Shown: positions 12,556 to 34,331 of the stretch, piece after piece | Layout of the letters: every line of letters starts with the position of its first letter | Position numbering within the stretch: the first letter of the stretch is position 1 | Source: Paeniglutamicibacter sulfureus | GTDB lineage: Bacteria; Actinomycetota; Actinomycetes; Actinomycetales; Micrococcaceae | NCBI RefSeq assembly: GCF_039535115.1 | Contig: NZ_BAAAWO010000001.1 | Span: 62,001-126,000, forward strand | Direction: 5' to 3' | Length of the DNA stretch: 64,000 bases | Made by a program: the position numbers and the translations under genes | Notes under the pieces: generated by a model | Told to the model about the DNA's origin: nothing | The model's database searches: none | What the model saw: the letters and a program-made list of their open reading frames with translations, nothing else

Positions 12556-12925
12556 GGGGATGATCGGTTTCGACGGTGTGAGTCGCGACATGTGAAGCGG
12601 GCCGAGGATGCAAAGTTATCTCGTTAACGCTCTTTGCAAAACAATAAGTGCCGACTCAAAGCGCACTGACTTCGCTCTCGCTGCCTAAGCAGCCAGACAG
12701 TCCGTAAGCCAGGGGATGCTATCGCCCCTGTTCCTTACGTCATTTAGATAGCCACTGCGGGAAGTTATCGTTACCGGAACGACCTGCATAATTTAGGTAA
12801 CTGTGCCCGGATCAGCCGCTTGTTTGCATGACGGCTGGGGCAGAGAAAATCCAACGCAAACTGCGCCCGGAGAAGACCTGGCAACACCACATCGGACGGG
12901 AGTTCAATTCTCCCCATCTCCACAA
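12556..12925 (+). ncRNA. ssrA: tmRNA (transfer-messenger RNA)
   Basis: The 5' end GGGGATG pairs with CATCTCC (12915-12921) to close the tRNA-like acceptor stem, with discriminator A at 12922. A T-arm GGGAG-TTCAATT-CTCCC precedes the 3' end. The 5' domain has the conserved GATCGGTTTCGACGG. The encoded end reads ACAA rather than ACCA, so CCA must be completed after processing. About 370 nt, as usual. It releases stalled ribosomes and tags the nascent peptide for proteolysis. Confidence 0.96.
12650..12688 (+). other. tmRNA proteolysis-tag reading frame
   Basis: From the resume codon GCC the frame encodes ADSKRTDFALAA and stops at TAA (12686-12688). The C-terminal ALAA is the protease recognition end. 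The preceding AGT triplet and A-rich context fit a resume site. Confidence 0.85.
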
Positions 12926-31284: not shown

Positions 31285-31992
31285 ATGACGCTAAGACCCA
31301 GCACCGTCTCAACTGTTCAGCTGGCGTGGGCACAAATCCTGGGGGTGGATCAGGACGCCCTGGCTGACGGCGGTATGAGGATCCACTGCGAAAAAGACGA
31401 CAGCTCCGTGCTCACGTTTGTGTCGTTGTTTGGAACTGGCGTTCTGGTGGGCCCGGGGTGGGCAATTGAAGCAGCCGAAGACCTGACTGACGCCGAACTC
31501 GCCAGCCATTCAAAATTATTGGAGATCAGTTCACCGTACGGTGGACAACCGCTCGGTGAAGCTGCACTTTATTTTTGCGACGATGGCCCTGCCATACCGG
31601 GTGTCGGTCAGACGGTGAGCCGCGATCCAAGACATGCCGTCGCTTTGGAAGGTGCCTGCCCGACAAATGATTCCACGGAAGTTCTCCTGAGCGAGATGGC
31701 CAATACGTTCGTCTTGCTAGATGACAGTGTTGATCCGCCATTCCCGCACGCAGGTGCTGGATATGACATTCGGGCAGGCAGCCTGGCTCAGATGGGCGTG
31801 CTCACCGCGCCCGAAGTACGGCGTCGCGGGCTCGCCCTCAAGGCCGCCACGATAGCCATGGGTCAGGCTATGGCCTCCGGGCTCATTCCACAGTGGCGAG
31901 CCAGAACCGATAACACGGCGTCGATTCGCACAGCCGTCAGCGCAGCGTTCGAGTACGCGGGAACCCAAACAAGCGTGGTTCTCAGGCCCTGA
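31285..31992 (+). CDS. GNAT-family N-acetyltransferase
   Basis: 235 aa. The C-terminal half has a GNAT acetyl-CoA fold, with MGVLTAPEVRRRGLALKAATIAMGQAMASG as motif A (RRRGLA pyrophosphate loop) and WRARTDNTASIRTA afterwards; the N-terminal half is less conserved. A -10 box TAGGGT (31273-31278) ends 6 nt before the ATG, without Shine-Dalgarno. Base composition is less GC-rich than its neighbours, suggesting an acquired gene. Substrate unknown. Confidence 0.78.
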   Translation: MTLRPSTVSTVQLAWAQILGVDQDALADGGMRIHCEKDDSSVLTFVSLFGTGVLVGPGWAIEAAEDLTDAELASHSKLLEISSPYGGQPLGEAALYFCDDGPAIPGVGQTVSRDPRHAVALEGACPTNDSTEVLLSEMANTFVLLDDSVDPPFPHAGAGYDIRAGSLAQMGVLTAPEVRRRGLALKAATIAMGQAMASGLIPQWRARTDNTASIRTAVSAAFEYAGTQTSVVLRP

Positions 31993-32406
31993 ATGGCGGC
32001 TTGCGTAGTGCTGGGGAAATGGATCGATGACCATCCTCGGCCCCTTCAAACGCTTTAAGCCCCGCGCTCCGTCCTAAGTCTTCGACGGCCCGTGCCCCGG
32101 GCCAGGCGTTAACCACGCGATTGAGGATGTTGGCGTGCGCGGAATAGGCCGTCGCGCATACGAAACGTCCAATACATCAATCGCCTGGCCGGTGTGGACG
32201 GGCACCAGCCCGAGCAGCGCCAGGATGGGTGCCACCTTGTGACGCCGAATATTTTCTGCGGGCCCGGCGTATTGGTCCGGTGGACCGCCTGTCGCTGCAC
32301 CGAGCGGCTTGAAGTCCCAAGCCATCATGCTGCCGCGTCTTTGTCCTTTACCGGATTTCAGATTAGGTCGTCGATATTTTCAGGTGTGCCCAAGACCAGG
32401 GGTTGC
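31993..32406. other. Intergenic region without a convincing gene
   Basis: 414 bp between a GNAT gene and the leader/ligase unit. A minus-strand frame of 84 codons (32074-32328) exists but has no Shine-Dalgarno, no recognisable family and a Pro/Gly-rich composition; it may be a decayed remnant. Nothing else seen. Confidence 0.4.
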
Positions 32407-32435
32407 TTGGACAGGAACATGCAACCTGCTAGCCT
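32407..32435 (+). promoter_or_regulatory. Promoter of the leader peptide-ligase unit
   Basis: -35 TTGGAC (32407-32412), a 17-bp spacer, -10 TAGCCT (32430-32435). The expected start of transcription falls at 32442-32443, i.e. on the leader-peptide ATG. Confidence 0.7.
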
Positions 32436-32442
32436 CGGCAAC

Positions 32443-32514
32443 ATGCGTAACTCACTGCGATTTATCAGCCCCCGACCGGTTGCCGGTCGCGAGGGCTCTG
32501 AGGCGCGCGCCTAG
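32443..32514 (+). CDS. Putative leaderless leader peptide upstream of the PheS-like ligase
   Basis: 23 codons, beginning MRNSLRFISPRP and arginine-rich, ending at TAG 32512. It starts 7 nt after a well-formed -10 box with no Shine-Dalgarno, so it would be translated from the first base of the mRNA. A TTT Phe codon (rare in this GC-rich genome) is codon 7, directly before the left arm of a hairpin (from 32467). It ends 62 nt before the ligase ATG. The layout is that of a transcription or translation attenuator; expression is not proven. Confidence 0.55.
   Translation: MRNSLRFISPRPVAGREGSEARA
32467..32497 (+). promoter_or_regulatory. Leader hairpin 1 (inside the leader peptide frame)
   Basis: AGCCC (32467-32471)/GGGCT (32493-32497) outside and CGACCGG (32473-32479)/CCGGTCG (32483-32489) inside, with a 3-nt loop. 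The right-arm CCGGTC can alternatively pair with GATCGG of hairpin 2. Confidence 0.6.
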
Positions 32515-32530
32515 GTCCTGGCGGCGGAGC

Positions 32531-32555
32531 GGATCGGGGGACTATCCACCGATCC
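32531..32555 (+). promoter_or_regulatory. Leader hairpin 2 (before the ligase ribosome-binding site)
   Basis: GGATCGG (32531-32537) and CCGATCC (32549-32555) form a 7-bp stem with an 11-nt loop, 10 nt before the AAGGA Shine-Dalgarno. Its left arm overlaps the segment that could pair with hairpin 1, so the two structures may be mutually exclusive. Confidence 0.5.
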
Positions 32556-32576
32556 AGACCCACCCAAGGACTTCCC

Positions 32577-33695
32577 ATGACTACTTATCTTTCCGCAGAT
32601 GAACTCCACGACGCTCTAACGCTGCGTGACCTCTCCAATCCCGAGCATGGCCCACACGCCATGCAAGAGCTGCTGGGCCAGGTCACCACGGCTCTCACGC
32701 GTCGTTGGGGCGTGGTGGCCAAGACGGTGCGAAACAGCCCACTGGTCTCGGTCACAGACAACTACGACAACCTGGGCTTCTCCGCGTCGACCGTGACCCG
32801 CGACCAACGGTATTCGCGATACGTGAGCCCCACGGTGATGCTCCGGAGCCACACCTCGGCATCGGTCCCTGGGTTGCTCAGGAATCTGCCGCGAACCGGC
32901 GGGTTGGACGAACTGGTCGTCATGCCCGGGTTGGTGTATCGACGGGACGCCATCGACCGGACACACGTCGGCGCACCCCACCAGGTGGACCTCTGGCGGA
33001 TATGTCCATCCCCGGCACTGGGGCCGGTCGACCTTGAATCGATGATCGCCGTTCTGGTCGAGGCGGTCTTGCCCGGTGCCCGATGGCGCACGGTGCCTGC
33101 CGTCCATCCCTACACGACCAACGGGCTGCAAGTGGATGTCCTGGTTGGCAGCGCATGGTTGGAACTCGCCGAGTGCGGCATGATGGCGCCGCACCTCTTC
33201 GCCGAGGCCGGACTCGACCCGGAACAGTGGTCGGGCCTCGCCCTGGGCATGGGCCTGGACCGGGCCCTGATGCTGCGCAAGGGCATTCCCGACATTCGAC
33301 TCCTGCGTGCCCGCGACCAACGCATCGGATCCCAGATGCTCGATCTGGCGCCGTGGCAACCGGTCTCGCTTCTTCCCCCGATTCGGCGCGACATCTCGAT
33401 CGTCGTCCCCACATCCTTCGACGAGGAGATCCTGGGCGACGAAGTCCGCCAAGCGCTCGGGGAGCGCATGGACGACCTTGAATCGGTCGGGCTTCTTGGA
33501 CTGACCGACTGCGAGGACCTGCCTGCGGCGGCACGGGACAGGCTGCAGATCGAACCCGGGCAGGCGAACGCACTGATTCGCATTACGCTCCGGCCGATCG
33601 AAAGCACCCTCACCGCGCGGGAAGCCAATCTCATGCGCGACGATATTTACAGGGCACTGCACCAGGGCCGTGTCGTGGAACTCATCGCAGGCTAG
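32577..33695 (+). CDS. srmL: Stand-alone PheS-like class II ligase with FDX-ACB domain (SrmL-type)
   Basis: 372 aa, AAGGA 6 nt before the ATG. A class II synthetase core related to the PheRS alpha subunit: motif 1 region MLRSHTSASVP (88-98), motif 2 LVYRRDAIDRTHVGAPHQ (about 119-136), WLELAECGMMAPHLFAEAG (194-212) and motif 3 GMGLDRALMLRKGIPDIR (224-241). A C-terminal ferredoxin-fold anticodon-binding domain (about 265-370) normally belongs to PheT, so the protein resembles the monomeric mitochondrial PheRS. The Phe pocket motif FPFTEPS is replaced by HPYTTNG (177-183), so the substrate is probably not phenylalanine. This matches proteins called PheS-related mystery ligase. Function unknown. 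Confidence 0.85.
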   Translation: MTTYLSADELHDALTLRDLSNPEHGPHAMQELLGQVTTALTRRWGVVAKTVRNSPLVSVTDNYDNLGFSASTVTRDQRYSRYVSPTVMLRSHTSASVPGLLRNLPRTGGLDELVVMPGLVYRRDAIDRTHVGAPHQVDLWRICPSPALGPVDLESMIAVLVEAVLPGARWRTVPAVHPYTTNGLQVDVLVGSAWLELAECGMMAPHLFAEAGLDPEQWSGLALGMGLDRALMLRKGIPDIRLLRARDQRIGSQMLDLAPWQPVSLLPPIRRDISIVVPTSFDEEILGDEVRQALGERMDDLESVGLLGLTDCEDLPAAARDRLQIEPGQANALIRITLRPIESTLTAREANLMRDDIYRALHQGRVVELIAG

Positions 33696-33842: not shown

Positions 33843-34331
33843 ATGCAGCAACCTCCGCCCATTACCCTGCAGCCATTTCAAGAGTCCGATGCGGCATTTT
33901 TCGCGGGCATGGCCTCCGACGAGCGGGTGACTCGCTTCGTTGGGGACGGACGGCCATGGGATCAGCAAACCATCAATGACCGTGTTCGCGCAGCCCTTCA
34001 GGAGGACGCTCTCGATCTCGCGGGAGCATCGCGCTGGTTCCTGGCCAAGGAGGCAGACGAACCTGTCGGCATCGTGGTTTCCACTCGGAAGGACGAGGGC
34101 ATTGAGATCGGATACTGGGTGTCACCCGAGCACTGGGGTCGCGGCATTGCCGGGGCCATGGTCGATGGCGCGCTGACCACGATTCCCGAGGTGTACAAAT
34201 CCCGGGAACTCTTTGCCCGCGTGGACCCAGCCAACACCGTTTCCGCCAAGCTGCTCACCCGACGCGGCTTCCAACTTGAGGTCAACCAATGTGGGCTTGA
34301 CCGCTACACCCTCGTACCGGTCAATTCGTAG
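33843..34331 (+). CDS. GNAT-family N-acetyltransferase (RimJ/RimL type)
   Basis: 162 aa. Acetyltransferase_3-like: ITLQPFQESDAAFFAGMASDERVTRFVG at the N-terminus, the acetyl-CoA loop WVSPEHWGRGIAGAMVDGAL and the C-terminal VDPANTVSAKLLTRRGFQLE. GAAAGAGA precedes the ATG. Single-gene unit after the ligase gene. Substrate could be an antibiotic, a ribosomal protein or a metabolite; no sequence evidence decides. Confidence 0.85.
   Translation: MQQPPPITLQPFQESDAAFFAGMASDERVTRFVGDGRPWDQQTINDRVRAALQEDALDLAGASRWFLAKEADEPVGIVVSTRKDEGIEIGYWVSPEHWGRGIAGAMVDGALTTIPEVYKSRELFARVDPANTVSAKLLTRRGFQLEVNQCGLDRYTLVPVNS

Follow-up and report, generated by a model that had tools for sequence, protein, structure and literature searches.

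In translational attenuation of the ermC/ermD type, pairing conceals the Shine-Dalgarno (SD) site until a ribosome stalled in the leader exposes it, and the leaders of pheA and pheST in Escherichia coli have several Phe codons as well as an SD. According to the part of the literature cited here, attenuation of E. coli pheA, with its leader pheL, is governed by Phe-charged tRNA and pheST is regulated "similarly" (PMC11802643). In Streptomyces coelicolor, an auxiliary TrpRS, described in the cited passages as resistant to indolmycin (PMC9437257), is reported to be under ribosome-mediated transcriptional attenuation (work cited in PMC4787780). Attenuators of Streptomyces trpS and leuS are included in a survey of Actinobacteria, the cited section of which describes phenylalanine operons as having no conserved RNA structures (PMC1262725).

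Here, we describe a locus from Paeniglutamicibacter sulfureus in which a small frame precedes srmL, a gene for a PheRS-like enzyme. The window, i.e., the whole stretch of DNA that was analyzed, comprises 64,000 nt (NZ_BAAAWO010000001.1, 62,001-126,000, forward strand), and all coordinates are window positions. The leader of srmL is probably an attenuator in which a translating ribosome gauges how much Phe-tRNA is available, the controlled product being a PheRS-like enzyme for emergencies.

The srmL locus and the encoded enzyme

The features of the locus are collected in Table 1. The promoter, the ATG at 32443, the 23 codons followed by TAG, TTT as codon 7 and the hexamers CCGGTC and GATCGG had all been located correctly by the sequence-only reading that this work follows up. 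A generic scan of positions 31800-33200 gave 0 promoters and 0 terminators, so that the window promoter rests on conservation; no intrinsic terminator with a U-tract was found in this interval either, and the number of Rfam families, T-box included, matching the leader (32380-32620) was 0 up to E = 1. The case therefore rests on comparison. Elsewhere, the window contains a tmRNA gene (12556-12925; RF00023, 154.5 bits).

Table 1. Features of the srmL leader and its surroundings in the window
Feature	Position	Strand	Basis or remark
Promoter TTGGAC-17-TAGCCT	32407..32435	+	Sequence; -10 core conserved in leaders; missed by generic scan
TTGGAC and TAGCCT, 17-base spacer	32407-32412 and 32430-32435	+	Sequence
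Small frame, predicted leaderless, 23 codons, MRNSLRFISPRPVAGREGSEARA	32443..32514	+	ATG 32443, stop TAG 32512-32514
Putative sensor codons 6-7, CGA (Arg) and TTT (Phe; 32461-32463)	32458..32463	+	CGATTT in 67/70 leaders
Arm L, CCCCCGACCG, 5 bases 3' of the Phe codon	32469..32478	+	Pairs with R or D; covariation
Arm R, CCGGTCGCGAGGGC, hairpin 1 right arm; 3' half can pair with anti-SD	32483..32496	+	
Anti-SD GGTCCT, at the stop of the small frame	32514..32519	+	Shuffle test, covariation
Arm D, GGATCGGGGG, includes hairpin 2 left arm	32531..32540	+	L:D pairing
Hairpin 2 right arm CCGATCC	32549..32555	+	Predicted in window; weak across relatives (9/70)
SD of srmL, AAGGAC	32566..32571	+	
srmL, 372 aa, single-chain PheRS-like enzyme, 3 Phe	32577..33695	+	NF051887, Phe content, fold
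GNAT acetyltransferase gene, downstream, possible partner	33843..34331	+	PF13302

The product of srmL belongs to NCBIfam NF051887, "PheS-related mystery ligase" (523.1 bits vs. a cut-off of 300). It contains the class II synthetase core (PF01409, 107.9 bits) and reaches 24.7 bits, below 31.1, for the anticodon-binding FDX-ACB domain PF03147, with the C-terminal part being aligned in the match to 3tup. An AlphaFold2 model of SrmL (mean pLDDT 84.9, pTM 0.71) matches the open, tRNA-bound form of human mitochondrial PheRS (3tup) with a TM score of 0.71 over 421 columns at ~24% identity, and six other entries of the same enzyme give TM scores of 0.56-0.60 because the domains sit differently. Residues R122, R123 and R229, which have a role in ATP binding, are invariant in 27 SrmL sequences. 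The Phe-pocket motif FAF reads LAL or LAM in 27 aligned SrmL sequences and LAF in 1 of the 119 motif matches among P0001-P0120, so Phe may not be the substrate of SrmL. As the genome encodes a second PheS-like protein elsewhere (G000:C1:4532996-4533586, 33% identity), SrmL constitutes an extra copy. SrmL also matches a phage protein family without an assigned function (phrog_19793, 81 bits, residues 53-253); an anti-phage role was considered and rejected, since PADLOC gave no match for either SrmL or the GNAT protein. With regard to the literature, no paper on SrmL was found among most of those listed for the name, and other searches yielded analogues only.

The occurrence of SrmL is patchy. 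It is present in 3 of 396 genomes drawn from the phylum, in 53 of 395 genomes of the window's family and in 3 of 35 genomes of the family of one distant actinobacterial match; further occurrences are found in 23 of 249 Pseudomonas genomes, in 7 of 24 genomes from the family of Anaeromyxobacter oryzisoli and in 44 of 249 genomes from the family of Pseudonocardia lacus (29 loci were taken from named genomes). Gene neighborhood comparison revealed no partner gene general to srmL loci. A GNAT gene (PF13302) lies near srmL in five of the compared loci, three from Paeniglutamicibacter including the window and two from Rhodococcus (~37% identity). RimL is an acetylase that confers resistance to microcin C analogues, and the GNAT protein encoded downstream of srmL is distantly RimL-like (NF007539, 19.3 bits, far under the cut-off of 184). 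Resistance to such analogues via acetylation is described in the cited part of PMC3817062. A PheRS-directed natural product could, as a speculation, be the selecting agent.

The most conspicuous property of SrmL is its near lack of Phe. Taken together, 52 SrmL proteins contain 47 Phe in 19674 residues (0.24%), with none at all in 31 of them, and 17 true PheS proteins contain 320 Phe in 6125 residues (5.2%); the value for seven window genes is 3.3%, and the window SrmL has 3 Phe. Low contents are likewise found among 120 database matches (249 Phe in 44734 residues), the best 120 relatives of the Pseudomonas protein (163 in 45684) and the SrmL proteins from 24 Pseudomonas loci (49 in 8863), as well as in 20 SrmL proteins from the Pseudonocardia family, two of which (L157 and L160) are also among the 52 (2 in 7295; 18 of the 20 without any Phe). 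At 16 alignment columns where 80% or more of the PheS sequences have Phe, this residue fills 10 of 480 SrmL cells; most often its place is taken by Leu or Tyr. That enzymes required when an amino acid runs short are themselves poor in it is a principle described in PMC4209129.

Occurrence and codons of the small frame

Upstream of srmL, a small frame with Arg-Phe was collected from 70 distinct leaders, mostly from the window's family, with duplicates having been merged before counting. As the search required Arg/Gly-Phe-x-x-Pro in frame with a start, the presence of Arg-Phe in all 70 leaders is due to selection by the search pattern; codon choice, spacing and the small number of misses are its free results. 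The misses are L040, L060 and L112, for which CGATTT is absent in any frame in the 420 bases upstream, while L050, the contig of which begins 17 bases upstream, was left aside. A set of 38 representatives below 85% similarity was also used. When the leader pattern was searched in the 395 genomes of the window's family, 56 places were found, 49 of them at srmL or an srmL remnant (48 at srmL by comparison of positions and one, L116, at a remnant), and a control with the reversed pattern gave 1 place in the same genomes. The remaining 7 of the 56 places (L117-L123) were inspected as candidates for leaders before other genes and dismissed; they lie inside long open frames with no SrmL match in 2 kb. 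In L116 (G771:C52), a leader with the full pattern directly precedes an srmL remnant for 65 C-terminal residues, and no other SrmL match is found in 3 kb.

Leaders of this type also occur in two further families, those of Pseudonocardia and Anaeromyxobacter, and an Azotobacter plasmid carries one as well. In the Pseudonocardia family, 20 of 44 SrmL matches were read, and the Arg-Phe frame was found in all 20 loci, with CGATTT in 18. Among seven loci of the Anaeromyxobacter family, the frame was identified by script in four and by eye in three; the latter (L148-L150) contain CGATTT, their small frame having been seen by eye only. These three loci exhibit a tandem pair of codon-plus-hairpin units, by eye with CGATAT (Arg-Tyr) in the first and CGATTT in the second. 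For L136, L143 and L150, the called start is probably wrong. Two plasmid-borne copies may be mentioned here. On a Glutamicibacter nicotianae plasmid (L113, NZ_CP142605.1), srmL and its leader adjoin a gene for a Cmx/CmrA chloramphenicol exporter. A Corynebacterium diphtheriae plasmid (L115, OV884290.1) carries, flanked by erm(X) and tet(65), a truncated piece that corresponds to SrmL residues 155-370; CGATTT is absent from the 420 bases upstream of this piece.

In Pseudomonas, such a leader precedes srmL in 0 of 24 loci (L135 is the same as L060). Phe avoidance is kept in these organisms without the leader, so this trait of the enzyme extends beyond the loci that have the leader. The Pseudomonas srmL genes (L124-L147) instead share a block resembling TTATTTGTGTAGG...TCTGTAGT...TTCTGAAA, which lies about 100-150 bases upstream and is well conserved in 9 aligned loci. 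A Phe-rich small frame (e.g., MGFVFFES) was considered for Pseudomonas and discarded, as Phe codons number 22, 17 and 15 across the three frames of 14 loci, i.e., without enrichment.

A -10 core of the type TA...T lies 6-9 bases 5' of the small-frame start in 65 of the 70 leaders and at 0.6% of random positions, the first figure being a favorable one as the start was chosen for the best -10. None of the 70 small frames is preceded by a 5 of 6 match to AGGAGG, which lends weak support to a leaderless start because srmL itself reaches this match in only 11 of 70. From the position of the -10 core together with the lack of a good SD, the small frame is therefore predicted to be leaderless. The ATG lies five codons before Arg in 63 of 70 leaders. 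The sequence-only reading had suggested a test for a conserved start and for covariation of both hairpins; hairpin 1 (L:R) covaries, as detailed below, and hairpin 2 is weak.

The codons themselves are strongly biased. TTT serves as the Phe codon in 69 and CGA as the Arg codon in 67 of the 70 leaders, with the combination CGATTT in 67; for the 38 representatives, the numbers are 37 (TTT) and 36 (CGA). As background, the PheS controls contain 320 Phe codons, of which 16 are TTT, and 470 Arg codons, of which 12 are CGA, and the corresponding values for seven window genes are 12 of 70 and 7 of 116. Peptide positions 2-5 vary among the 38 representatives, and before the hairpins only Arg-Phe is fixed. 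Selection acts on the codons of Arg-Phe and not on the residues alone. The number of Phe codons at the fixed site is one, not several in a row. In L097, L099, L101 and L108, all from one genus, the frame is shifted in the region of R with the hairpin arms being kept; the peptide 3' of the Phe codon thus follows the RNA.

Pairing of the leader arms

Pairing was compared with dinucleotide shuffles at P 0.05 or better. Arm L with arm D performs better than shuffles in 67 of the 70 leaders (48 when only D is shuffled) and L with R in 50. The stretch before D, which holds the anti-SD, exceeds shuffles in 32 leaders when paired with R and in 34 when paired with the SD. Masking of the SD by D (3/70) or by the stretch after D (0/70) was rejected on the same test. 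D with the downstream stretch that includes the hairpin 2 right arm passes in just 9 leaders. The sequence-only reading had proposed attenuation by a leaderless leader peptide, with a switch in which CCGGTC of R (32483-32488) pairs with GATCGG of hairpin 2 (32532-32537). Attenuation of this kind is supported by conservation, by covariation and by new loci. The proposed switch can form in the window with 6 pairs including one G-U and exceeds shuffles in 4 of 70 leaders; it is not conserved. The conserved competitor of L:R is instead L:D.

Among the 38 representatives, changes on both sides number 29 for L:D (mean 9.4 and maximum 18 in 1000 partner swaps), 19 for L:R (mean 3.2, maximum 9) and 24 for SD:anti-SD (mean 7.7, maximum 16), with the swaps taking no account of kinship. 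When mapped on a tree built from 52 proteins, position 4 of L (C/U) and its partner in D (G/A) change 4 times each and jointly 5 times. Since D belongs neither to the small frame nor to srmL in its called extent, the covariation of L:D is no by-product of coding. The helices L:R and L:D are mutually exclusive and both covary. In 21 loci outside the earlier set, i.e., omitting L151, L152, L157 and L160 as already among the 70 and L150 and L153 because of misread frames, L:D is found in 15, L:R in 16, R with the anti-SD stretch in 8 and SD with the anti-SD stretch in 3. The core of the element is thus an arm at a distance of five bases from the Phe codon, with R and D as its alternative partners, and the output probably differs between lineages.

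The fold of the window leader by itself is modestly better than shuffles (z -2.12; 4 of 200 shuffles equally good). When L is blocked to +15 or +18 from the start of CGATTT, the window model predicts a drop of anti-SD:SD from 0.94 to 0.02 or 0.00, a rise of R:anti-SD from 0.02 to 0.98 or 1.00 and an increase of unpaired SD from 0.06 to 0.65 or 0.67. Across the 70 leaders, blocking of L changes mean SD accessibility slightly, from 0.22 to 0.25 (18 up, 11 down, P 0.06) or, in a second calculation, to 0.26, and in the first model a ribosome at the small-frame stop has a larger effect (0.31; 37 up, 8 down). Masking and release of the SD on leader block are thus strongly predicted in the window and weak as a mean over the 70 leaders. 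In the window's family, the SD is predicted to be masked by the anti-SD. Full-length leaders modeled without a ribosome favor L:R (0.84) over L:D (0.10), and transcripts that end at D with L free show R:anti-SD with a mean of 0.74.

The copy on the Azotobacter plasmid has the same CGATTT followed by a terminator with a U-tract, the 5' arm of which (T5) can pair with R instead. As long as D is not yet made, R:T5 reaches 0.89 in the model with a ribosome at the Phe codon, 0.89 without a ribosome and 0.05 with a ribosome at the stop. Once D is present at equilibrium, blocking of L yields the terminator (0.89), whereas with L free the terminator is absent and L:D reaches 1.00; when a ribosome sits at the stop, L:D is at 0.79 and the terminator at 0.19. 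Among these modeled states, only the one before D is made fits the classical expectation. The direction of the switch is therefore inferred rather than computed.

Proposed sensing of Phe-tRNA and alternative explanations

According to the attenuator reading, a ribosome would begin leaderless at 32443 and would have to decode the rare TTT as codon 7. With plentiful Phe-tRNA it would run on, L:R and anti-SD:SD would form and srmL would be off. When Phe-tRNA is short, the ribosome would stall at codon 7, cover the 5' part of L and prevent L:R, whereupon R would take the anti-SD and leave the SD free for a translational output. As a conserved alternative to L:R that is compatible with R:anti-SD, L:D may hold the on-state; this simple model does not explain why L:D is the best-conserved pair, because a ribosome waiting at the Phe codon would keep L from D as well. 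SrmL, the enzyme thereby produced, would charge tRNA-Phe and, having hardly any Phe residues, could still be synthesized when charged tRNA-Phe is scarce. A Phe-poor relative of PheRS behind a rare, fixed Phe codon points to expression when Phe-tRNA is short. Several observations stand against this interpretation. Classical amino-acid leaders carry several regulatory codons, whereas one Phe codon is present here at the fixed site; the mean gain in SD accessibility on blocking L is small and that with a ribosome at the stop is larger; in Azotobacter with D present, blocking of L favors the terminator; anti-SD:SD is weak in the new loci; the altered pocket motif raises the possibility that Phe is not the substrate; and Phe-poor SrmL occurs without the leader in Pseudomonas, with L040 and L112 also lacking it. 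In a further reading, failure of Phe-tRNA would lead SrmL to charge tRNA-Phe with some other amino acid in place of Phe, such that Phe codons are temporarily recoded and translation continues, with the leader being on only when a ribosome waits at the Phe codon; srmL would then avoid Phe codons because its own product must stay right. We regard such recoding as improbable.

The sequence-only reading had also considered an antibiotic-stalled ribosome as the signal, in which case the leader would be erm-like and SrmL part of a drug response. The Arg just before the stall site, the near-constant distance from the start, the neighboring chloramphenicol exporter gene in Glutamicibacter and the truncated piece between erm(X) and tet(65) in Corynebacterium would agree with this. 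A drug stall, however, predicts a conserved peptide, whereas positions 2-5 vary and synonymous codons are fixed instead; moreover, the family matches of SrmL are synthetase families and no known resistance family, and its Phe avoidance would be left unexplained. We consider this explanation unlikely, and charged tRNA-Phe is favored as the signal because the position of the Phe codon is constant, nearly all leaders use the rare TTT for it and the enzyme encoded downstream avoids Phe. It is also unlikely that the switch works with the reversed sign, in which case uninterrupted translation of the small frame would lead to L:D and to expression of srmL, and a pause of the ribosome at the Phe codon would shut the gene off. 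The conservation of L:D, the R:anti-SD pairing in transcripts ending at D, the Azotobacter model with D present and the freeing of the SD by a ribosome at the stop all speak for such a sign, but it would be hard to see why an enzyme made solely under ample Phe-tRNA should be nearly free of Phe, and full-length leaders without a ribosome favor L:R over L:D. Very unlikely, finally, is the possibility that the small frame and the hairpins sense nothing and serve mRNA stability or basal translation as a static 5' element. Pseudomonas homologs do live without the leader, but such an element would not be expected to show two covarying pairings that exclude each other, nor a rare codon pair fixed at a constant distance.

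The proposed Phe-tRNA attenuator offers a testable function for a "mystery ligase" family in the form of a nearly Phe-free enzyme behind a sensor for a Phe codon. If true, SrmL would be a back-up for failing Phe charging, perhaps against a natural product that targets PheRS, with an occurrence that spans actinobacteria, myxobacteria and pseudomonads and includes some plasmids. Its leader would then represent a leaderless attenuator in which one rare codon acts as the sensor.

Compared with E. coli pheA and pheST, the likeness would lie in an attenuator that is governed by Phe-charged tRNA and acts on Phe metabolism or PheRS; the leader described here differs in having one Phe codon, a predicted leaderless start and no terminator found in the window, and its target is a Phe-avoiding extra enzyme instead of the housekeeping PheRS controlled at pheST. 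With the auxiliary TrpRS of S. coelicolor it would share the arrangement of a second synthetase behind an attenuator, although that system concerns another amino acid and has a transcriptional output, and SrmL is a single-chain enzyme of the mitochondrial type and no copy of the cell's two-subunit PheRS. The attenuators of Streptomyces trpS and leuS, as far as the cited section of the survey describes them, resemble the locus in that synthetase genes lie behind leader peptides in Actinobacteria. An SD that is hidden and then freed on stalling, as predicted here, is reminiscent of ermC/ermD, but beyond Arg-Phe there is no conserved arrest peptide and codons are conserved instead. Human mitochondrial PheRS (3tup, 3cmq) is likewise a single chain with a class II core and a C-terminal domain, and differs from SrmL in the pocket motif (FAF replaced by LAL/LAM), the identity being ~24%. 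Finally, the cited part of PMC4209129 deals with a low cognate bias of biosynthetic enzymes, whereas in SrmL the cognate residue is nearly absent and the enzyme is synthetase-like.
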